Source of the DNA: Basidiobolus meristosporus CBS 931.73
Lineage: Eukaryota > Basidiobolomycota > Basidiobolomycetes > Basidiobolales > Basidiobolaceae
Length of the DNA stretch: 64,000 nucleotides
Assembly (NCBI GenBank): GCA_002104905.1
Contig: MCFE01000251.1
Location: 49,887-113,886, forward strand
Reading direction: 5' to 3'
Shown: positions 3-64,000 of the stretch, in pieces
Numbering within the stretch: position 1 is the stretch's first letter
Layout: each line of letters opens with the position of its first letter
The notes under the pieces: generated by a model
The model's database searches: none
What the model was told of the DNA's origin: nothing
What the model saw: the letters and a program-made list of their open reading frames with translations, nothing else
Program-made: the position numbers and the translations under genes

Positions 3-2099
3 CGGAAGAGAAGCCGTACCGGACACAAAAGAGAAGAAGGCATCAAAAGACAGAGTCCCTTGCCAGGAGGCCAACAGGACTCAGTCAATCTAAGCCCTCC
101 AATCAGGACAATTGAAGTGCGGAAGAAGAAGCGTCAACATGATGCTTCTAGAGAGGAGGCAAAGGAACCTGTAGTAGAGGTTCCGTCAAAAGGAAAGAGC
201 GCGGAATTAGGTGAAGAAGTACGGAATGAACCTTGGGAAGAAGTGTTAAAGCGAACGAAGTACGCTAGCACGTCTTCCCATGGCCTATTCCCCATAATGA
301 AGGTACTAGAGCAAACCAAGGCAACCCTCCCAATAACCAATTTACTGGGACTGGCCCCGGCTCTAGTCAAGGAACTGATAGAGGGATTGAAGGAGATAAC
401 AACCCTCCATGTCAACCAGACGGTCCTGCAAAAACGGAATAAAGGTACATATGTAAAGGTACGTATAGAGAATAAGGAGATTCTTGCCCTTATCAACACA
501 GGATCCTCTATGTTCATCATGTCAGAGTCATTAGCAAAACGTCTAAAACTAAATATAGTCCCCAACGACACCATTTGAGTACGGCTAGCGAATGACCAAC
601 TGGATACAACGGTAGTTGTGGTGCCTAATTGCCCCATTCAGCTAGGCAACTTGATAATACGCCAAGATGTCGTGGTCCTACCCGTCGCAGCCAACAACTT
701 ACTCATTGGCGAGAGTTGGTTTATCCAACATAAGATGGATATACTTTACAGTGCATCTGAACTCAGGTGGGATACCAAGAGTATCCCACTGATTCATATC
801 ACCGATGAGAGCAAGGCGCGTAGCAACAGTGTGACAATCGAAGAGGTGAAACCATCGCACTCTCCGATCATCACACAAAAGGTGATAAAAATACCACCTG
901 CCAGTGAGACGGCGATCTCATTAGAAACACCAATAGCTTATTCAATGAGCGGAAGAATGATAACCGCAGCAAAAGCATCCGAGCAACTGGAAGGAATCTT
1001 GATCCCTAAAGTATGGATACCACCAAAATTTGAAACGCAAAGCCTGAAATGCTTAGTGGTTAACAACAGGCAACACATGGTGACATTGCCTAGAGGAGTG
1101 CCATTGTTAAACTTAGAGGAAGTTGACGGAAACGACCAAGGACCACCTCCAAACAAAGAACCAGAAGAAGAACTCCCCAAACTAGATGTGGACCCCGGTC
1201 TACCGCCTACGTTACAAGACAAATTCCTAGAAGGAATATGTCCGCTTGCCCAAGTATTCTCTAAGAACCAAGTAATTGGTCATATACCTGGGGTATATCA
1301 CCAAATCCACCTTGCCGACAAATACCCCATCAAGCAAAAAGCCTATAGGAATTTGAAAATTGACACAGACTATATCAAAGATACGATTGAAACTTTATTA
1401 AAAGACGACATCATTACAGAGAGCCAGTCTCCGTGGGCCTCCCCCGTAGTGATAGTCCCAAAGAAAGACGGAAAGCAATGCTTTTGCATCAACTACCGGA
1501 AATTGAACGCCGTCACCCAGAAGGACGTGTATCCGCTACCGCGAATAGACGACCTCTTGGACAGATTAATTGGAGCTAAATATTTTAGCTCTCTTGACTT
1601 AATCTCCAGGTATTGGCAAGTAGAAGTAGCCCCGGAAGATCGACCCAAAACCGCTTTTATAACATTGTTTGGATTATACAAATGGAACCAACTACCCTTT
1701 GGCTTGTGCAATGCCCCCGCTACGTTCCAAAGGATGATCGACAAAGTGCTAGGAAATCTACAATGGGAATGCGCCCTTGTGTATCTGGACAACATCACGA
1801 TATATTCCCCCAATGTAGAAGAACATATACACAATGTGCAACGTATCCTGACATCCCTCCTCGAGAACCAACTCAAACTACATCCCAAGAAGTGCCATTT
1901 CCTGTATACAAAATTGTTGTTCCTGGGCCACGAGATCTCGGCAGATGGAATATACCCATCTATGTCACTCCTGAAAGCCGTTCAAAATGCACCTGCACCA
2001 AAGGACATTAATGCAGTGTTGGGATTCCTAGGATTAGCCGGCTACTATCGCCGCTTTGTCAAAAACTTTGCGACGATAGCAGCCCCCTATACAAATTGA
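3..2099 (+). pseudogene. Ty3 pol fragment: aspartic protease and reverse transcriptase
   Basis: One frame stays open from the window edge, interrupted only by TGA at 576-578. The retropepsin motif is ILALINTGSS: the catalytic Asp of the usual DTG is Asn (codon 495-497). The RT follows, with the KKDGKQC block, SSLDL (motif A), LPFGLCNAPATFQ and YLDN in place of the YLDD active site (Asn codon 1791-1793). LGHEIS and GLAGYYRRF mark the end of RT and the connection domain. The frame ends at 2099 because one C appears missing from the run at 2083-2087; RNase H continues in another frame. Enzyme functions in the intact family are Gag/Pol processing and cDNA synthesis; this copy should have neither. 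Confidence 0.92.
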
Positions 2100-3256
2100 C
2101 GCAAAAGGGCCAGTGTTTTGTATGGTCGGAGCCTCAAAAGAGAGCATTTGATCAGCTGAAACATTCCCTGACGTCACCGCCAGTGTTACAATTTCCCAAT
2201 TGGGATGCGAGATTTTTTATTAACTGTGATGGAAGCCTCACCGGTATAGGCGCCGTACTGGGACAATACCACCAACCCGGCAAATTCCACCCGATCGGTT
2301 ACGTGAGCCGTTTGCTAAACAAACACAAACGCCACTACCCCGTTACCGAGATAGAATGTCTGGCTGTTGTTTATTCAATTAAACAATTCCATACATACAT
2401 ACATGGTTGCCGATTCACGATAGTAACGGACCACAGCGCACTGGTCTGGCTGATGAAAACTAAAGACTTTACCGGCCAACTAGCACATTGGGCCCTACAA
2501 CTACAGCAATACAACTTTGAAATAGTTCACCGCGCTGGCAAGAAACACCAGGACGCAGACTTCCTCAGTCGCTATCCCGTTTGCCAAATACGTGTCAGTG
2601 ATGAGTACAAGGACGTAATCTGCTTTAAAAAGAAAGGGAGGTATCCCAAACACGTCGTTACAAGCAAACAGAAGAGAGAATTTCGAAGGAAATGGTGTCA
2701 GTACAAAGTACAAGAAAATCAACTATGGTTCCTCCAAGGACAGTCCAGAGCCAAGGTACCCCCACTAGCAGCCCGTGAAGAAATCATACAAGAAAGACAT
2801 ATGTCATTAGGACACGCTAACCCCCTAACGACATATAAGATGTTAAGAAAAACGTTTTATTGGCGAAAAATGATGACCGACGTTACAAATACGTTACAAA
2901 GATGCACCACTTGCAAAAGATTCAACCGGAGTCAGAAGATAGGGACAACTGCACCAATACCGGTTGACCTGCCCTTCCACCAAGTAGGGATCGACTTTGT
3001 TGGCCCCTTTATGAAAACAAAGAAAGGAGAACAATACATAATAATTGCTACTGATTATTTCTCAAAATGGGTAGAAGCCCAAGCCGTCCGCAATAAAGAT
3101 CAGAAGACAACCGCCCGATTCATTCTAGAACACCTCATCTGCCGACATGGATATCCTCAGATACTCCTGTCCAACAATGGTGGTTCCTTCCTGAACAACA
3201 CCGTGGCCCACCTGTGCAAAATGATGGGCGTGAAACAAGTCTTCACGGCCGCGTAG
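2096..3256 (+). pseudogene. Ty3 pol fragment: RNase H and integrase N-terminal part
   Basis: The RNase H domain shows GIGAVLGQ, the ITEIECLAVV-like acidic helix (TEIECLAVVYSIKQF) and VTDHSALVWLM, then the HQDADFLSR end of the domain. It is followed by the HHCC zinc-binding module of integrase (H-x3-H at HMSLGH, C-x2-C at CTTC) and the start of the catalytic core with IDFVGPF. The second core Asp is Asn: LLSNNGGSF, codon 3173-3175. The frame stops at TAG just after FTAA, exactly where intact relatives continue into the Tyr-His-Pro stretch and the third catalytic acid. Part of the core has therefore been deleted here. Confidence 0.9.
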
Positions 3257-3615
3257 GTGTCCCCCTGACAACACATAACGACTATATAGAAAGGTTGATA
3301 CACCGTATCGCCCACCTATACATAAAAGTATTTGAAAATGTCGACAAGCACCTTCCCCCTCCACCCAAAAATGAGAAACTAACGAGACAAAAGTGGAAAC
3401 CAGGCAATAAGGTGTGGTACGACCAAACCGTTGCAGGCCTCAAGTTCCGCCCACGATTTACACCCCAATGGATTGGCCCATGCACCGTTATCAGTTTGGA
3501 CCACGGACCAAAGTACACCATCACCCTGAATAATAAGACAATCAGCAACGTAGCGCCAGCCCATCTGAAACCGTTTCATGATGATCCACCGATCATCACT
3601 GAGACCGAAGTGTGA
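3257..3615 (+). pseudogene. Ty3 integrase C-terminal (GPY/F) fragment
   Basis: After the deletion point, a shifted frame encodes the tail of integrase: KWKPGNKVWYDQT, then PQWIGPCTVISLDHGPKYTI, which is the GPY/F module found in the C-terminal domain of Ty3/gypsy integrases, then SNVAPAHLKPF. The frame closes with TGA at 3613-3615. No chromodomain is visible. In intact elements this module helps target-DNA binding. The fragment lies in series with the upstream integrase part and belongs to the same copy. Confidence 0.85.
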
Positions 3616-3720
3616 TTAAACGATTATCAGGACAAGGATAGAGGAAGACACGGGATACATTCAAAGTTTATTAGAGGAGATTTTAGTCAATATAGGTACA
3701 AATAATATGCGCGAGGGAGT

Positions 3721-4914
3721 TTGCCCAAAGGGGAGAACAAAAGAATGCATATGGAAAGCACCGAAGGAAACAGTTCACCCAAAACTGGCGATACCCCTCC
3801 CACTAGCAAGAACCAAGATGATATCGAAAACAAAACCGACCTGCAAGTGTTAAGAGATATGGTACGAGCGTTATGTACAACAAGAGCCACCTATGAAGAG
3901 TCGTTTGCCGGAGCAGTCACGCTAATACGAGACACAATCAGAGAGGGACAAGACAAGTTACCCACGCCAATACAAAGCATGGAGATACTACCCAAGAAGA
4001 CCGTGTACCACCTAAGAGGAGGTTCCTTGATCATTAAGGAGAAGGACACCGCGCTGATTCCCGTATCCATACTGGACACAGTCAGACAGAAGACACAAGG
4101 AATCAACTGTCGCGCCCTCACAAGACCTTGAGAGCCCCCCTGTTTCGTTGCATACTTGCCATTAATAGGTACCACGGTTGTTGAGGTATTCGCAGACCTG
4201 GTACGAGCTGCAAGAGCACCAGAAGTAGAACTCCCGATCAAAGGACTCCTCCGAGAAATTCGCGAACATCTCGAACCACATTTCCAAGAAGGAACCATCT
4301 TAGAGAAGATACGCGAACGGATTAAATACACCGGCCAGTTAACCCATGCAATCCACCAAGTTGCTGTGTTACAACTATTACAGTGGTTTACCATAGGACA
4401 ACTCAGGAATCAGTACAAAGTCCAACTCCAAGAAGCCGAAGAAACCGCCGCGGATTCTGTAGAAACCATGAGGCAAGTACGAAAGCGCCTCGATTGCACC
4501 ACAGTTTCTACGGAAGAACTACAATACGTCTTGGAAGAAGCAAAAACTCGTTATTGACAATGGGTGACTGCCAACCGAGTGTACGCCCTCTTCAAAAGGT
4601 CCCCCGCTGTCATATTGAACACAAAAAGGACAAGCCCCGATAACGTTTGCAAGATAATGAAGCAAGACTTTATCGCGCTATTGCACCTTTTCTTGTTCTC
4701 CAACCCTCCTGAGGAACTTACCCAGAACCCTATGGTTTGCCAACTATTTGGCTCTGTGGAAAACATCCCTCAAGCAACACAGGCCGCACCCCACTTGGCC
4801 GCCAAATGGTATCAGGTACTTGCCCGCGATCCCCTCGCAAGTGACAACCAGCAATGGTACTACGGTGACTCCCCATGCTCTGTAAACAAAATCGATCCTG
4901 GAGAAGCGAGTTAG
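3721..4914 (+). pseudogene. Extra ORF downstream of integrase in the Ty3 element, two in-frame TGA stops
   Basis: A single frame runs from about 3721 to a TAG at 4912-4914 and is broken only by TGA at 4129-4131 and 4555-4557. Its length, near 398 codons, and its position between integrase and the candidate 3' LTR are what an env-like or accessory third ORF would occupy. I see no signal peptide or transmembrane segment, so an envelope is not supported. The middle part is rich in Glu/Arg/Lys with likely coiled-coil (ADLVRAARAPEVELPIKGLL and following). I do not recognise the family. Both stops are preceded by T, consistent with TCGA turned into TTGA, as at position 576. Confidence 0.7.
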
Positions 4915-57739: not shown

Positions 57740-59107
57740 AATTTTAATGTTGAAGTCAAATTTTCCAGTTCCAATTTACTTGCCTTTCAGCTTTAATACC
57801 TTCACCTGCATATACACAGAAATGCATCATCGCTGTTGTGCACCTAGTTGATATTAATCTCAAACACAGTTATATGCTAAATGCTCATTCATGGCAATTT
57901 ATTCGTCGTAACAATTTACCAAACTTGATGGCATATCATGAACGAGAGTTACTGCGGTATGCTCATTGCAGATGTATATCACTCTCTTCACATGTATGGA
58001 TAGGATTTACACATATTTGCAATGGCTTAGAAATATTAAGGATAGATAAAAGTATTGATTTGTGTGGTTGAATAACAATCATACCCTTGGTATAATCCAA
58101 GCACATAAGAGCATCATATAGAAATTAAACTCCATCACTAAGAATAATGAGTTTGTAGTATATTTGAGGTATATGACTGCTTTGTGGTTGAGGAGTAATA
58201 TGATTAATTCAGTATGCACATTCGTTTGTTGCGGACTTCAAATTACAGCAAATATCGGAACCTCAGTAAATCTAGTACATAGTTTTACTTGACTTTTGAA
58301 CCATCGCCGAAACTTAGAAGTTTGAGCTAGGCCTAAATGCGCAACTTTGTAGAGCATAATGAGTACTGCCATGTTTGTGACTTCGGTTAATCTACACTCA
58401 AGTTTGTATTTACTGATCAGCATGTTCTTAAGTGCATGTCCAGACGAGCTGCATAATGCCACTCTTATCTCATCACAAAGCTACAGGTACTTATTGCCAG
58501 TACATGTGAACACAAAAATATACCACTGCATCATAGCTGCTAAAAATAAAGAGATGGCCCTATCCGCTTTCATCACTTAACTTTAATTATGCTAAACATT
58601 CGTGGACCAGTGAATTGCTGGTACTAGACCTGGTTTACATATACACTAAATGTTTCTGGATAAAGTTACTTGATCGGAGCGGGATATCCATATAGAGGCG
58701 TATGAGAAGCTGAAAGCGTTTGGTTTCAACATCGTATCTAGAGTTGCCCTATACATAGGTGAATGTAAGGTTGAATACACATTATATATTTGGTTGCTTC
58801 ATGCTAGCTATTTGTCCAGTGATCCTCTAAATCACTTGTGCTGGAACATAACCTGATTAACTAATCGGAAATTAGCTCCGCTACCAGGATAACTGACCTT
58901 GTTTACGTAGGTTCCCCACGCCTAGAACGATGCCCTCTACAATACTACTACTTCTGAATAGATGTTTCTGTTTCCTAGTCACCCAACCTATTAGTATCCG
59001 CTTCTTGATGATTTATCACTCTGAAGGCAAACAACTGCTTTACCAAAATCCAAGCACCTTGGCTATGGGACTGAAACACAATATAAATACTGCGCAGTTT
59101 ACAATTA
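57740..59107. other. Subtelomeric non-coding stretch
   Basis: AT-rich, no gene seen. It ends at ATTAGGGAGG (59104-59113), where a telomere-like TTAGGG unit meets the G-run (C tail on the minus strand) of the first LINE remnant. Confidence 0.5.
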
Positions 59108-59503
59108 GGGAGGGGGGGGGTAACATCTCCATTATAGTGAAATCTTTATTTTGCTAAGTAGCCAGAAAAATCACTAGCTAAAAAATAAAGTAGCTAACCA
59201 AGAGTTTCCAAATGTCTTAAGTATATATTCTAACTTGAACTGAATTTCTTGGGTACTATTACACCAAATTAAATGGAGTTTTACTTGAGAGAAGAGAAAG
59301 GTGAGGGGTTTTGGGGAAGCTGAAAGTTGTAAGTGATGCTTGTCTATATAATAAATATCTCTATGAGAAATAATTGTCAAGGTATAATCCAAAGGCCATC
59401 ACAAAATTAAAGTCCTGTGACAATGATGTATTGATCCTGTCAGGACACCATACAAAGACTATTGTGAAGTAATTGCACCCCAGATCTCACAAAAAACTTA
59501 GTT
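59108..59503 (-). mobile_element. LINE remnant C, about 0.4 kb, 3' end only
   Basis: The minus-strand frame 59392-59174 reads YYIDKHHLQLSASPKPLTFLF and on to EYILKTF, clearly related to the C terminus of the LINE copy at 61660 (DYIDQKHLQFVLPPKPLNFIF ... DYLLERF). It is followed by the shared 3' tail (GGCTACTT, AATAAAGATTTCAC, then a C run). It is 5'-truncated at about 59503 where the C tail of copy B begins. The terminal hairpin is degenerate here, so this is the oldest copy by appearance, as expected for the one furthest from the telomere. Confidence 0.8.
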
Positions 59504-61574
59504 GGGGGGGAGACAGTCACCAACAGGTGAAATCTTTATTTCAGTTGAAACAAAGAAGCCAGTGCTACTGTTGTAGCTTTGATACAAGGGTGTGCAGCTG
59601 AGGGGAATTTGTAGGGAGGTTTACAAGAAGTGATGATAGTTCTTCAGTGCTCAAGACACTGTTCAGTGGGAAGGGTGATAGCAAGAGAGGTAAGAATGAC
59701 TTGTGAACAACATTAATGAGGGGAATGTGATAAGGATTGATATTCATCATAAAGGGAGTGTGCTGCTGCAGATATTGCTGCCAAAGGTCTGTCAAGTACT
59801 TCAGGTAGGCCAGCTTGGGTTTTTCTGACTGCCAAATATAGTGAACAAAACTTCTTGACTTCAGGATCTCCAAGTATAGTTCTCCAGCAGGAGCCAGGTG
59901 TAGTGTGATGTGTTCTCTTCCAGGCCTTAATCAGTGGGTTGTTGCAGTGGTGAAGTCTGAGATATAATCTGGTTCTAAGGTAGAGAAGTCTGATCTTATA
60001 GGGCATAAACCCAAAAGCACCAAGAATAGCATGTCTGTAGGGGCATTCAGGCAAATGAGGCACCAAGGAGGTAATGCACCATACTGCAAACTTGTCAAGC
60101 TTAGTGCAGTCTTGAGAAGTAAGAGAGAGAAGTGGTAAGCCAATTCCAGGACAGGGAAGACAAACTGCTTGAGTAGAAGGAGGCAGCTGGGAGCTGAAGT
60201 TGTAGGAGGAGTAACAGCCAGTAGCTTGTGGAGTGCCTGTCTTGCCAGGATAATTCTCTTCTTCAGGTGTGCTCCAGAGTCTAGTCCAGTAGGAAGGAAA
60301 GGAAAGCCAAGATATGTAGCAAAAACCTGAGCAGGTAGAGTGGAGTTCTCCAAGTTGATGGGAGAGCCCAAAGGTACTGTCTTTGCAATGGAAAGCTGGA
60401 GATTATTCTTCTGCAGATACTGGTGGATGGTCTGGGAGTCTTGTTGCACATTGGAGGAGGATATTCTGATGTCATCAGCAAAGAGAGTGACCAGGCAGTC
60501 AGCTGAGAGTCTTGGGAAATCATTCAGGAAGATGGCAAACAGTGTAGGACCAAGCACAGAGCCTTGAACCACTCCATTAGGAACTGGGAACACAGCGGAT
60601 TGCTCACCTGGGTGCAGAATTCTTGCTTGTGGATCCAGAAACAGAGACCTGACAAGGAGGGTGAGAGAGGTACTGTAGAAGCATTGCAACTTGGACCAAA
60701 GCAGATTTCTGTCAACTGAATCAAAGGCCTTAGTAATATCAAACAGAACAGAGGGATACTTGCACTGGAGAGAGTGATCTTGGCTAAGTATGACTGCATA
60801 TTCCAAGGAGAGGCCAGGAACAAAGCCAAACTGTGCAGGATGAAACTTGAGGGAGTCAGAGTAGAGCTCCTGAGCAAGCAGAAGCTCAAACACCTTTCTG
60901 CAGGTGGGCAGCAGAGATATTGGCCTGTAGGAGCTAGGATCCAGGTGCTTTCCTTTACCCTTGTACAGTGGCAGAACATTTGCAAAGGACCATTCCTCAG
61001 GAGTAGAAAGCTGGGCTGAGCATTGCTGAAACAGTGGAAGCAGAAGTGCAGACATGGCCTTGGTACTAGTCTTCATAAGCTCATAAGAGATTGTGTCCAC
61101 ACCTGGAGCAGTAGAGTTGGGAAGCCTCTTGAGCACATTATAGATTCTCCTTTGATCAAGTGCAAGTGGGATGGGCAGAGTCTTGAAGTCAGGATGAAAG
61201 CCAGGAGTTGAGTACTGCTTTGTAGAGAAGAAGATGTTAGCCAGCTGTTCTGTTGAAGGTAACTTCCTGGAAGAGGGCCTCATTGCCCTGTAGAGTCTTG
61301 ATACTGCTCTTGTTATAGAGTTGGAAGATTGCAGAGGCAAAGAACTCATAATATGATCCCAGAGCTGAGTATGCAGAGTGTGGTGAATTGCCTTGGAGTG
61401 GTGTATTGCTGTCAGGAGGAGTTTCTCTGTTTTTGGGTTAGGGAAACTCAGGTAGCTTTGTTGCAGGGCTGAAACAATGGATTCCCATTTTCTTGAGGTA
61501 ACAGCAGTAGTCTTGCATGGCAGTGAGAGGGAGGCAGACACCAGAATCAGATGCTTCACAAAGAGCCAGGCATA
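59504..61574 (-). mobile_element. LINE copy B, 5'-truncated, frameshifted
   Basis: Non-LTR retrotransposon copy, 3' end toward lower coordinates. The reading frame is open right to the 61574 junction, where it is cut, so the start and any endonuclease are missing. At the 3' end: GGCTTCTTTG, AATAAAGATTTCACC, hairpin CACC-AACA-GGTG, then a C tail joined to the broken end of copy C. Confidence 0.9.
59565..61572 (-). pseudogene. LINE reverse transcriptase of copy B
   Basis: The 542-codon frame (61559-59931) holds the RT domain: FANVLPLYKGKGKHLDPSSYRPISLL, FDITKAFDSVDR (motif A Asp), GVVQGSVLGP, and FADD at the active site. It then shifts frame twice. The sequence related to copy A continues in 60066-59713 (SLVPHLPECPYRHAILGAFGF-like) and again in 59873-59565 (SEKPKLAYLKYLTDLWQQYL to the TGA). 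The C-terminal parts align in order with copy A, so these are two indels in one former ORF, at about 60.08 and 59.86 kb. Confidence 0.88.
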
Positions 61575-61587
61575 GGGGAGGGAAAGT

Positions 61588-61600
61588 CACCAAGTTGGTG
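61588..61600 (-). repeat. Terminal hairpin in the LINE 3' tail
   Basis: CACCAA, C, TTGGTG (minus strand), perfect 6-bp arms in copy A. Related hairpins at 63260-63271 (CACCA-CT-TGGTG, outermost element) and about 59518-59529 (CACC-TGTT-GGTG, copy B). It sits immediately after AATAAAGATTT and before the C tail. In stringent LINEs such 3' stem-loops are what RT recognises. Confidence 0.75.
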
Positions 61601-61659
61601 AAATCTTTATTTGAGTTAAGAACTAATCTAAGTACAAATAAAGAAGCCAATTCAGAGGT

Positions 61660-63240
61660 CTAGAACCTCTCTAATAAGTAATCTAATTTATGTTTTGTTT
61701 CATCTCTAATGTTTGTTTCAATAAAGTAAAGCTCATCAGGGGTAAATATAAAATTCAGGGGTTTTGGGGGGAGTACAAATTGTAGATGTTTCTGATCAAT
61801 ATAATCCAAGACTGGAACCCAGCCTGGGATTAGGTGCAGTAGGAAAGGTGTATGGACTTGTAAGTAGCTCTGCCACATAGATCTTATATGGTCCTGAGCC
61901 AGTAGTCTTGGTTTCTCAGCTTTTTGAAGTTTTGAAGCAAGCTCTGTTACTACAGCAGAGCCAACCAGGGTGTGCCAGCAAGAAGATTTCAGGGAGGATT
62001 CAGATTGAAGCCATTGTTGGATGGAGGGGTTATGTGATTTCTGAAGTTTGACTAGGAAGGAAGCACGGAGATAGATCATTCGGATTTGGTATGGGTAGAA
62101 CCCAAAGGCTCCATTAGTTGCATGGATATAGGGAGATACTGGAAGATAAGGTACCAAGGATCTGATACACTGATGGAGAAATTTATCCAGGTGGTGAAGT
62201 TCTCTGGAGGTTAGGGGTATAATGTGGAGACCAAATTCAAGTACTGGCAGCACATACTGCTTCAGAAGTATAGGGATCTTTTGAATTGGAGTGTCTGGAG
62301 TGACTACTACCAGAAGCTTTTTGAGAGCCTGTTGGGCAAGACGGATCCTATTATTCAGGTGGAGCTTGGAGTCAATCCCATGTTGACAAAACGGCAGACC
62401 TAGATATATTGCAGTTTGTTGTGGCAGAATGCTAGTGTTCTGTATAGTTGTAGTGCATCCTATTGGGACTGTCTTGGAAATTGAGAGTGAGAGGTTGTTG
62501 GCAGCCAAGTACTTCTCAATGATGGCAGTGTCTGCTATGGGATTAGGAGTAGCAATCTTGATATCATCCGCATAGAGAGTTAGTAGTGGATAGGGAGAAT
62601 CTGGTGAGGGGCCTTTTGGAAATAAAGGAAAGTCATGTAGGAATATCACAAATAATAAGGGACCTAGTACAGATCCTTGGACTACTCCATTTGGAACCTC
62701 ATAAGTCTCTGATGTACAACTTGGATGCAAAATTTTGGCTGAGTTCTCACAAAATAGAGAACGTACAAGAAGGGTCATTGGTAGTGTGGTAACTGCTAAT
62801 AGCTTTCTCCAAAGCAGAGCTCTGTCCACAGAGTCAAAGGCTTTAGTAATGTCAAACAGAATGGTTGGCAATGAGAATTGAAGTGAATGATCATGGCTTA
62901 GCACTACAGCCATATCCAAGGAGAGTTTGGGCAAGAAGCCAAACTGAGAAGGATGGAATGGATATAGTTGAGATTGCAAGGATTTTGCTATTATAAGCTC
63001 AAAGATTTTCTGGCAGGTTGGTAGGAGTGAAACTGGCCGGTAAGAACCTGGGAGTGAGTGTTTCCCCTTCCCTTTGTATAAGGGTATTACATTTGCCTGT
63101 GACCAGGCCTTTGGGGTAGTCAATTGTTGGGCACAAATAGAGTAGAATGGGAGAAGTAAGTGACTCATTTTGGAGTAGCACACCCGGAGTAGATTGTAGG
63201 TAATCAAGTCATGTCCAGGTGCAGTATTTGCAGGAAGCTT
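61660..63240 (-). CDS. LINE reverse transcriptase, N-terminally truncated
   Basis: At least 515 codons. RT motifs: NVIPLYKGKGKHSLPGSYRP, FDITKAFDSVDR, VPNGVVQGSVLGP, and YADD at the active site, all intact. The C-terminal half (LKQYVLPVLEFGLH and on, with HLDKFLHQCIRSL) is shared with copy B; I see no RNase H motif or C-terminal CCHC knuckle. The N-terminal part, including any endonuclease, is missing. Enzyme activity is possible from the motifs, but a start codon and promoter are lost. Percent identity to copy B looks moderate, so the copies are not recent duplicates. Confidence 0.9.
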   Translation of the reverse strand, partial: KLPANTAPGHDLITYNLLRVCYSKMSHLLLPFYSICAQQLTTPKAWSQANVIPLYKGKGKHSLPGSYRPVSLLPTCQKIFELIIAKSLQSQLYPFHPSQFGFLPKLSLDMAVVLSHDHSLQFSLPTILFDITKAFDSVDRALLWRKLLAVTTLPMTLLVRSLFCENSAKILHPSCTSETYEVPNGVVQGSVLGPLLFVIFLHDFPLFPKGPSPDSPYPLLTLYADDIKIATPNPIADTAIIEKYLAANNLSLSISKTVPIGCTTTIQNTSILPQQTAIYLGLPFCQHGIDSKLHLNNRIRLAQQALKKLLVVVTPDTPIQKIPILLKQYVLPVLEFGLHIIPLTSRELHHLDKFLHQCIRSLVPYLPVSPYIHATNGAFGFYPYQIRMIYLRASFLVKLQKSHNPSIQQWLQSESSLKSSCWHTLVGSAVVTELASKLQKAEKPRLLAQDHIRSMWQSYLQVHTPFLLHLIPGWVPVLDYIDQKHLQFVLPPKPLNFIFTPDELYFIETNIRDETKHKLDYLLERF

Positions 63241-63328
63241 CTTAGGGGGGGAGGAAAGTCACCAAGTGGTGAAATCTTTATTTACTTATAACAAGTATCT
63301 AAAGAAGCCAAGTTAATCTGAAGTTATT

Positions 63329-63447
63329 CCTAGAAAGCTAGGTCTGGGAGATATCTTCCTGGTAAGCCAGGTCTGAGAGTTGAGAAGCTGAGTGGTACTA
63401 TATTTCCTAGTTAGCTAGGTCTGAGAGAGGTTTCCTGGAAAGCCAGG
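63329..63447. repeat. Four short hairpins with co-varying stems
   Basis: CCTAGAAAGCTAGG (63329-63342), CCTGGTAAGCCAGG (63358-63371), CCTAGTTAGCTAGG (63406-63419), CCTGGAAAGCCAGG (63434-63447). Each has a perfect 5-bp stem and a 4-nt loop. The fourth stem pair alternates A-T, G-C, A-T, G-C, with both sides changing together. Each is followed by TCTG-GAG or CCTGAGA, so the array probably arose as a duplicated two-hairpin unit. Confidence 0.8.
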
Positions 63448-63705
63448 CCTGAGAAGTGAGAATCTGAATATATCTGAGCTAAGTTATACTGGTTTGCGGT
63501 AGCTGAATTGTAGCCGGAATGGCCAGTAGACTGGGGGAACTGAGATGAATTTCTGGGCGATCACTGGCCAAATTTACTAGGCAAATCTGGCCATTAGCAT
63601 TTCAAGGATTTCAGCCAATCAGAGCCTTTACTTTGCCCGATGGTTGATCAAGCCATCTCCCAATGAGCACACATCAATTTATTAATCAAATTTTTGCTGG
63701 ATCCA

Positions 63706-63759
63706 GGATTTGAACCCACAACCATGGGTATGGAAGGGTTAGGGATAACCACAAGGCTA
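63706..63759 (-). other. tRNA-like pol III promoter (A and B boxes)
   Basis: Minus strand: TAGCCTTGTGGTTA (63759-63746) matches a pol III A box, and GGTTCAAATCC (63716-63706) matches the B box (consensus GGTTCGANNCC), about 30 nt apart as in tRNAs. Acceptor and T stems do not pair properly, so it is not a working tRNA gene. It is best explained as the head of the SINE candidate. Confidence 0.7.
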
Positions 63760-63770
63760 AGTGTTCTTGG

Positions 63771-64000
63771 TTAGGGTTAGGGTTAGGGTTAGGGTTAGGG
63801 TTAGGGTTAGGGTTAGGGTTAGGGTTAGGGTTAGGGTTAGGGTTAGGGTTAGGGTTAGGGTTAGGGTTAGGGTTAGGGTTAGGGTTAGGGTTAGGGTTAG
63901 GGTTAGGGTTAGGGTTAGGGTTAGGGTTAGGGTTAGGGTTAGGGTTAGGGTTAGGGTTAGGGTTAGGGTTAGGGTTAGGGTTAGGGTTAGGGTTAGGGTT
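63771..64000 (+). repeat. Telomere, TTAGGG repeats
   Basis: About 38 uninterrupted TTAGGG units running off the window. G-rich strand is 5' to 3' toward the end of the window, the right polarity for a right-hand chromosome end. The array starts immediately after GTGTTCTTGG, the 5' flank of the tRNA-like head. Confidence 0.99.

Follow-up and report, generated by a model that had tools for sequence, protein, structure and literature searches.

Among fungi, the long interspersed nuclear elements (LINEs) MoTeR1/MoTeR2 of Magnaporthe/Pyricularia and FoTeR of Fusarium reside on TTAGGG telomere repeats, with their 5' ends directed outward and with short interstitial repeat tracts. We describe here a comparable arrangement in Basidiobolus meristosporus CBS 931.73, found in an array of four retroelement units at the right end of contig C482 (bases 49,887-113,886, a 64-kb stretch referred to below as the window). 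Our analysis favours, with a probability of about 0.66, the reading that telomere-confined LINE families and a partner resembling a short interspersed nuclear element (SINE) use a C-run to prime on GGG at nearly bare chromosome ends.

The MoTeR arrays are similar to those of Basidiobolus in having truncated ends with telomeric seeds (17/23; PMC7367193) and in having a second, shorter element, MoTeR2. However, MoTeR and FoTeR belong to the CRE/SLACS/Cnl1 group, with a restriction-like endonuclease (REL; PMC12857005), whereas the LINE described here has an N-terminal fold of the apurinic/apyrimidinic endonuclease (APE) type. FoTeR carries 3-8 repeats on its 3' sides (PMC12857005, Table 3), as against mostly 0-2 perfect repeats in Basidiobolus, and MoTeR2 matches MoTeR1 at both ends (PMC7367193), whereas the Basidiobolus partner matches its LINE at the 3' tail only. 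In the portions of the literature available to us, the fungal telomere-targeted LINEs described so far are of the REL/CRE lineage. SART1 and TRAS1, R1-clade elements of Bombyx, share with the Basidiobolus LINE an APE-type endonuclease, specificity for telomere repeats and the presence of two open reading frames (ORFs). Yet the insertion site of SART lies between T and A of TTAGG, and SART1 ends in poly(A), while that of TRAS lies between C and T on the opposite strand (PMC7265360); the Basidiobolus junctions lie instead at the GGG of the repeat and the tail is a C-run, so that neither insertion site is that found here.

The initial annotation of this DNA had likened the array to HeT-A/TART, with LINEs priming on chromosome ends. 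The arrays do face the ends, but the units sit on TTAGGG, which makes targeting of the MoTeR/SART type a closer analogue than a telomerase-free HeT-A/TART end. HeT-A, TART and TAHRE form head-to-tail arrays of 5'-truncated units with their 3' ends toward the centromere, as in Basidiobolus, and Zepp of Chlorella is an L1-like element. Drosophila, however, is without telomeric repeats or telomerase activity (PMC7265360), whereas in Basidiobolus we found both the repeats (319 forward arrays, described below) and the sequence patterns of a TERT gene. Zepp, and also the Athena elements of bdelloid rotifers, resemble the Basidiobolus elements in being located at telomeres beside short telomerase-made repeats (PMC10088271). 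The Athena elements differ in being Penelope-like (PMC10088271), and the telomeric ones are endonuclease-deficient (PMC3846280); compared with Zepp and Athena, the Basidiobolus LINE retains an APE-type fold with conserved motifs and has a SINE-like partner. A search of the literature that excluded most subscription journals yielded no account of this system or of any telomeric SINE, nor a precedent for the SINE-like partner.

Results

The assembly comprises 89,006,234 bases in 1,311 contigs, which we labelled C1, C2 and so on. Alignment and direct reading of the sequence placed all four units of the C482 array in a single orientation, with their 3' ends facing the centromere, as the initial annotation had proposed, and the junctions it gave, at about 59503, 61574 and 63244, agree with our boundaries at 59105, 59498-59504, 61573-61575 and 63242-63248. 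The features of the array, in window coordinates and with their basis in parentheses, are these:

59105-59110, + strand: lone TTAGGG at the boundary between single-copy subtelomere and unit 1 (sequence)
59111-59497, - strand: unit 1, an old and diverged copy whose C-rich tail is degenerate (tail alignment)
59498-59503, + strand: TTAGTT, a telomere-repeat remnant between units 1 and 2 (sequence)
59504-61572, - strand: unit 2, a 5'-truncated LINEb (98.3% over 2059 bp against the LINEb of locus L041)
59517-59530, - strand: LINEb 3' hairpin, UCACC-loop-GGUGA, then the C-run (fold z -4.1, alignment)
61575-63241, - strand: unit 3, a 5'-truncated LINEc (98.1% and 99.3% over 1660 bp against two LINEc copies of L043)
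61587-61601, - strand: LINEc 3' hairpin, stem as in LINEb (fold z -1.8, alignment)
63242-63247, + strand: lone TTAGGG between units 3 and 4 (sequence)
63248-63768, - strand: unit 4, a complete SINE-like element whose 5' end adjoins the terminal telomere array (matches of its body in the genome, recurrent 5' end)
63259-63272, - strand: SINE 3' hairpin, stem as in LINEb (fold z -2.0, alignment)
63707-63715, - strand: B box GTTCAAATC of the SINE (pattern test, assumed consensus)
63749-63759, - strand: A-box-like TAGCCTTGTGG of the SINE (differs from the assumed consensus at one base; the strict pattern gave no match)
63769-64000, + strand: terminal TTAGGG array, first phase GG (period-6 repeat detection)

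The array had been described as four 5'-truncated LINEs, which is correct for units 2 and 3, from two families, but not for unit 4, which is SINE-like, and unit 1 is an old diverged copy. The further proposal that each tail touches the cut 5' end of its neighbour directly did not survive, since every junction holds TTAGGG or a remnant of it (TTAGGG at 59105, TTAGTT at 59498, ATAGGG at 61572 and TTAGGG at 63242). The telomerase-type array reported beyond the units is indeed present, with 38.7 perfect copies of TTAGGG at period 6 in 63769-64000. Unit 1 found matches outside C482, among the loci fetched, at L155 (76% over 151 bp) and L059 (79% over 48 bp). Reverse transcriptase (RT) frames are open in unit 2 (59931-61586, extending slightly beyond the unit; RVT_1 E=6.8e-25) and in unit 3 (61660-63258, entering unit 4 by a few codons; RVT_1 E=1.5e-21). 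By alignment, AAATAAAGATTTCAC is present in the tails of all four units, and the TCACC-loop-GGTGA hairpin with its C-run is kept in units 2-4, although the folds are modest, with 9, 11, 0 and 7 of 200 shuffles equal or better. The 1.2 kb to the left of the array (57900-59100) matched nothing in the genome except itself; with no second copy of this segment, an allelic or empty site for the C482 end was rejected.

We recognized two LINE families, LINEb and LINEc, together with a tail type that we named LINEd, and observed 592 exact LINEb tails in the genome (556 forward, 36 reverse), 388 exact SINE tails (367 forward, 21 reverse) and, allowing up to 3 mismatches, 215 forward and 31 reverse LINEc-like tails; backward controls for the three patterns gave 0. 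Placement and junctions were studied on the first 100 places listed per tail pattern, and placement was counted on contigs longer than 40 kb as distance to the end toward which the 5' side of the element points, with contig sizes partly interpolated from rank order (monotone on 119 known contigs). Within 12 kb of that end we found 77/81 LINEc-type tails (81/81 within 22 kb) and 66/66 RT copies, where 11.5% would be expected for either, and also 49/50 SINE tails and 37/41 LINEb tails; within 25 kb lay 50/50 and 41/41 of the latter two, respectively, where about 24% would be expected. The subtelomeric position and fixed orientation that the initial annotation had led us to look for elsewhere were thus borne out, in that all listed copies on contigs of this size lie near a contig end and face it. 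End confinement, a single orientation and a 3' junction on the telomere repeat are properties of telomere-targeted non-LTR retrotransposons, and the Basidiobolus elements show them.

Contig ends could also be related to telomeres directly. Within C1-C313, the range over which exact LINEb, SINE and LINEc tails were listed in full, 36 contigs are telomere-ended as called from two of the six array phases, and an exact tail is present on 30/36 of these, compared with 71/313 overall (Fisher p ~1e-16). The terminal array begins directly past a SINE match at position 232,407 of C458, 195,314 of C835 and 113,654 of C482. Contig C424 ranks second by size (312,558 bp). Each of its ends carries a telomere array and a SINE, the two SINEs being mirrored, so that the contig appears to represent one whole chromosome of about 313 kb. 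Taken with the roughly 300 perfect telomere stretches counted across the contigs, this suggests that the fungus has many small chromosomes. Perfect arrays of at least 10 repeats numbered 319 forward and 3 reverse, obtained as a difference of counts, where each count is of perfect stretches, so that one end may be counted repeatedly (backward controls, 0 forward and 7 and 6 reverse). The listed arrays of this length are mostly at right contig ends. The excess on the forward strand is probably a habit of the assembly.

Junctions between tails and telomere repeats were read at 140 places, namely the first 60 of the 100 listed for LINEc and 40/100 each for SINE and LINEb, taken at fixed steps. Perfect TTAGGG lay directly at the tail in 108/140, with 0 copies in 32 junctions, 1 in 83, 2 in 20, 3 in 4 and 4 in 1 (mean 0.99, variance 0.55), a distribution with its mode at one and narrower than Poisson or geometric. 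TTA followed by a G-run of at least 3 preceded the tail in 108/140 junctions, where TTA alone would occur by chance in about 1/64; A preceded the G-run in 136/140, and TAGGG was kept in 19 of the 32 junctions without a perfect repeat. The G-run between TTA and tail varied in length within and between families, with a mode of 4 for LINEc, 5 for LINEb and 6 for SINE. When irregular repeats were included, the tracts measured at most 12 nt in 82 junctions, 13-18 nt in 35, 19-24 nt in 11 and 25-39 nt in 12; irregular forms such as TTAGGTAGGG or TAGGGTAGGG were seen in the tracts of L054, L106, L123 and L124.

What lies on the other side of these tracts was also informative. All 71 left neighbours that could be classified by library match among 134 flanks were head-to-tail, the test having skipped 6/140 junctions with no A ahead of a G-run of three. 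The left flanks were distinct in 129/140 junctions, so that one segmental duplication is insufficient as sole cause and was rejected as such. None of the checks suggested in the initial annotation refuted its interpretation; as the target is itself a repeat, target-site duplications would be masked. The 5' break points of 40 LINEb copies were scattered, from 46 to 4,552. At 46 truncated junctions with an overlap of 0 or more, drawn from the 71 by leaving out 13 gapped and 12 full-length ends, element and telomere tract overlapped by a mean of 2.26 bases, versus 0.77 in simulation, and by at least 2 bases in 26/46 (p=3e-8); when ten truncated gap cases were scored as zero, the mean was 1.86 (p=5e-6). 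An age gradient along the arrays was weak for LINEb (rho -0.37, p=0.018).

Unit 4 is about 520 bp long and resembles the LINEs in its tail only (27-32 bases, 90-97% identity), the hairpin stem being common to both; such sharing of the 3' terminus with a LINE partner is a feature of SINEs. Its body is found complete at other contig ends. With 40/388 candidates scored, a search with the body yielded 63 matches, which are spread over 37 contigs and none of which lies more than 10 kb from the 5'-faced end. The complete 5' end was reached in 12/20 SINE neighbours, and 11 of those 12 read GTTCTT directly followed by GGTTAGGG. The tail-only LINE match, the recurrent complete body and the recurrent 5' end together rule out a truncated LINE. 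On its sense strand the element begins CCAAGAACAC; the A-box-like TAGCCTTGTGG follows at position 12 and the B box GTTCAAATC at position 56. The two boxes form a candidate internal Pol III promoter, with a spacing that we take to be tRNA-like. Neither ARAGORN nor Rfam gave a tRNA in the SINE head, and no tRNA was found in the whole window; a tRNA origin of the SINE is for this reason a lead, not a result. Within the SINE body, 63327-63456 contains a 25-base unit four times, with palindromes CCTAG..CTAGG or CCTGG..CCAGG.

The second ORF of LINEb (ORF2) combines an N-terminal APE-type endonuclease fold with a LINE reverse transcriptase, which places it among APE-type LINEs; matches of the fold to TRAS1, R1Bm and cellular AP endonucleases were tied. 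A Pfam scan, which included no dedicated REL model, gave no REL domain. The LINEb copies are near-identical, and the family is, as judged from the coding sequences, recent and under constraint. Ratios of nonsynonymous to synonymous substitution (dN/dS) of 0.14-0.69 were obtained for pairs including L012, L013 or L016 and were set aside from the main range; frame-shifted C-termini perhaps inflate them. The comparison of LINEb with LINEc was uninformative because synonymous sites were saturated. Outside this genome, the relatives of LINEb ORF2 were P0001-P0005, at 48-80% identity and on contigs shorter than 6 kb, and the other 73/78 hits were at 21-39%. Within the genome, 79 of 1552 candidates from the protein search were scored.

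With regard to telomerase, PF12009 exceeded its cut-off at C880, where the match falls into two pieces and one of these contains a TAG. Near these pieces, in two frames, RLLPKENGVRPI, KVDIKGAFDSIN and RLVDDFLYIS matched the patterns that we take to represent TERT motifs 1, A and C, respectively; the T-motif pattern, assumed in the same manner, had no match near them. A TERT gene, as identified by these matches, is present in the same genome as the elements. Of the earlier suggestion that two modes of end maintenance coexist or alternate, the coexistence of elements with a telomerase gene stands, but maintenance of ends by the elements, or their alternation with telomerase in this role, does not follow from our results.

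Elsewhere in the window, two overlapping long ORFs at 579-3256 look, when judged by eye, like Ty3/gypsy pol.

Discussion

We propose that the LINE protein would bind the 3' hairpin of LINE or SINE RNA, and that the C-run of this RNA would pair with the 3' GGG of a chromosome end bearing few or no telomere repeats. Reverse transcription would then extend the element outward from the GGG primer; the new end would be truncated or eroded, a few matching bases may allow telomerase to extend it, and repetition of the cycle would place older units closer to the centromere. The near-constant GGG register and the family-specific G-run fit pairing of the C-run with GGG of the telomere strand. The one-repeat mode is better explained by ends almost without telomere than by elements landing at random in arrays averaging about 25 repeats, a mean taken from the perfect-array counts. 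The weak LINEb age gradient fits outward growth. Variable starts and excess microhomology fit extension of truncated ends by telomerase, as has been proposed for one MoTeR truncation (PMC7367193).

Several observations weigh against priming on nearly bare ends. Irregular tracts reached at least 19 nt, and up to 39, in 23/140 junctions, although this measure can swallow tail bases; 12 of the 32 junctions without a perfect repeat have irregular tracts of at least 12 nt; and at C95, C291, C337, C424 and C683 at least 5 repeats lie directly ahead of an element. The neighbour is unclassified for 63/134 left flanks, which had no library match, and the SINE age gradient alone was not significant (rho -0.29, p=0.20, n=22). 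Microhomology at the 5' junction can also arise when L1-type elements insert into double-stranded DNA. Further, the motifs NCN, GDLN, VDW and SDH are all retained in 18/29 surveyed ORFs (L020 and L041 among the 18 being the same copy), and their sole change at the motifs is a conservative one, Asp in place of the Glu presumed to be catalytic; retention of the endonuclease makes more sense if cutting is required for insertion.

The last point leads to the principal rival, endonuclease-dependent insertion into duplex telomere repeats, as for SART1/TRAS1 and MoTeR, in which the APE domain would nick the G-strand past GGG, the C-run would pair there, and subsequent breaks with telomerase healing would give rise to the truncated units and the short tracts. 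This route would account for the conserved catalytic motifs of the APE fold, for the near-fixed register (A before the G-run in 136/140, TTA in 108/140) and for the one register of 11/12 complete SINE 5' ends, and the MoTeR arrays, with 1-10 interstitial repeats and telomeric seeds at 17/23 truncated ends, offer a precedent (PMC7367193). However, if elements landed anywhere in arrays of about 25 repeats, tract lengths should spread widely, and we observed 0-4 perfect repeats with irregular tracts no longer than 39 nt; SART1 requires at least 3 repeats (PMC7265360); and 14/200 listed array starts were scored as lying away from a contig end, in some cases by interpolated size. We consider this route less likely, and end priming is favoured over it by about two to one. 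Possibly, as a variant that overlaps with end priming, the RNA ends in CCCCUAA, so that the single TTAGGG is written onto a broken end by the RT of the element and not by telomerase. Such templating would suit the exactly one perfect copy in 83/140 junctions and the TAGGG in 19 of the 32 without one, but the variable G-run, with its modes of 4, 5 and 6, fits C-run priming better than a fixed tail, and tracts of 2-4 repeats would require longer tails; we regard it as improbable.

That the arrays spread chiefly by recombination or break-induced copying between ends appears very unlikely when 129/140 left flanks are distinct and LINEb truncation points are scattered, even though one truncated junction is common to two places on C130 (L052, L165) and MoTeR arrays also grow by such events (PMC7367193). 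Least probable is an effect of assembly, by which repeats would break contigs and so seem terminal. The first loci, it is true, extended to 15 contig ends, of which only that of L037 stops in a telomere array and the rest stop in other sequence; yet the uniform orientation, the telomere repeats at junctions, the telomere-ended contigs and the mirrored ends of C424 all speak otherwise, and an artefact was rejected on the orientation toward ends and the two-ended C424.

Priming of the LINE and SINE C-runs on nearly bare ends is therefore the reading that we retain. A more far-reaching possibility, which we put forward tentatively and hold to be rather doubtful, is that LINE and SINE constitute a second routine mode of end extension beside telomerase, with uncut ends whose telomere has shrunk to about one TTAGGG as primer for the LINE protein, the SINE as a ready cap made by the same machinery, and alternating layers at most chromosome ends. 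The APE-type LINEs of Basidiobolus would represent an independent origin of telomere-targeted LINEs, in an early-diverging fungus. A single genome here offers about a thousand exact tails, distributed over many ends, in which one can count tract lengths, seeds and the order of ages, and extension of chromosome ends by retroelements in telomerase-bearing cells thereby becomes open to direct test.

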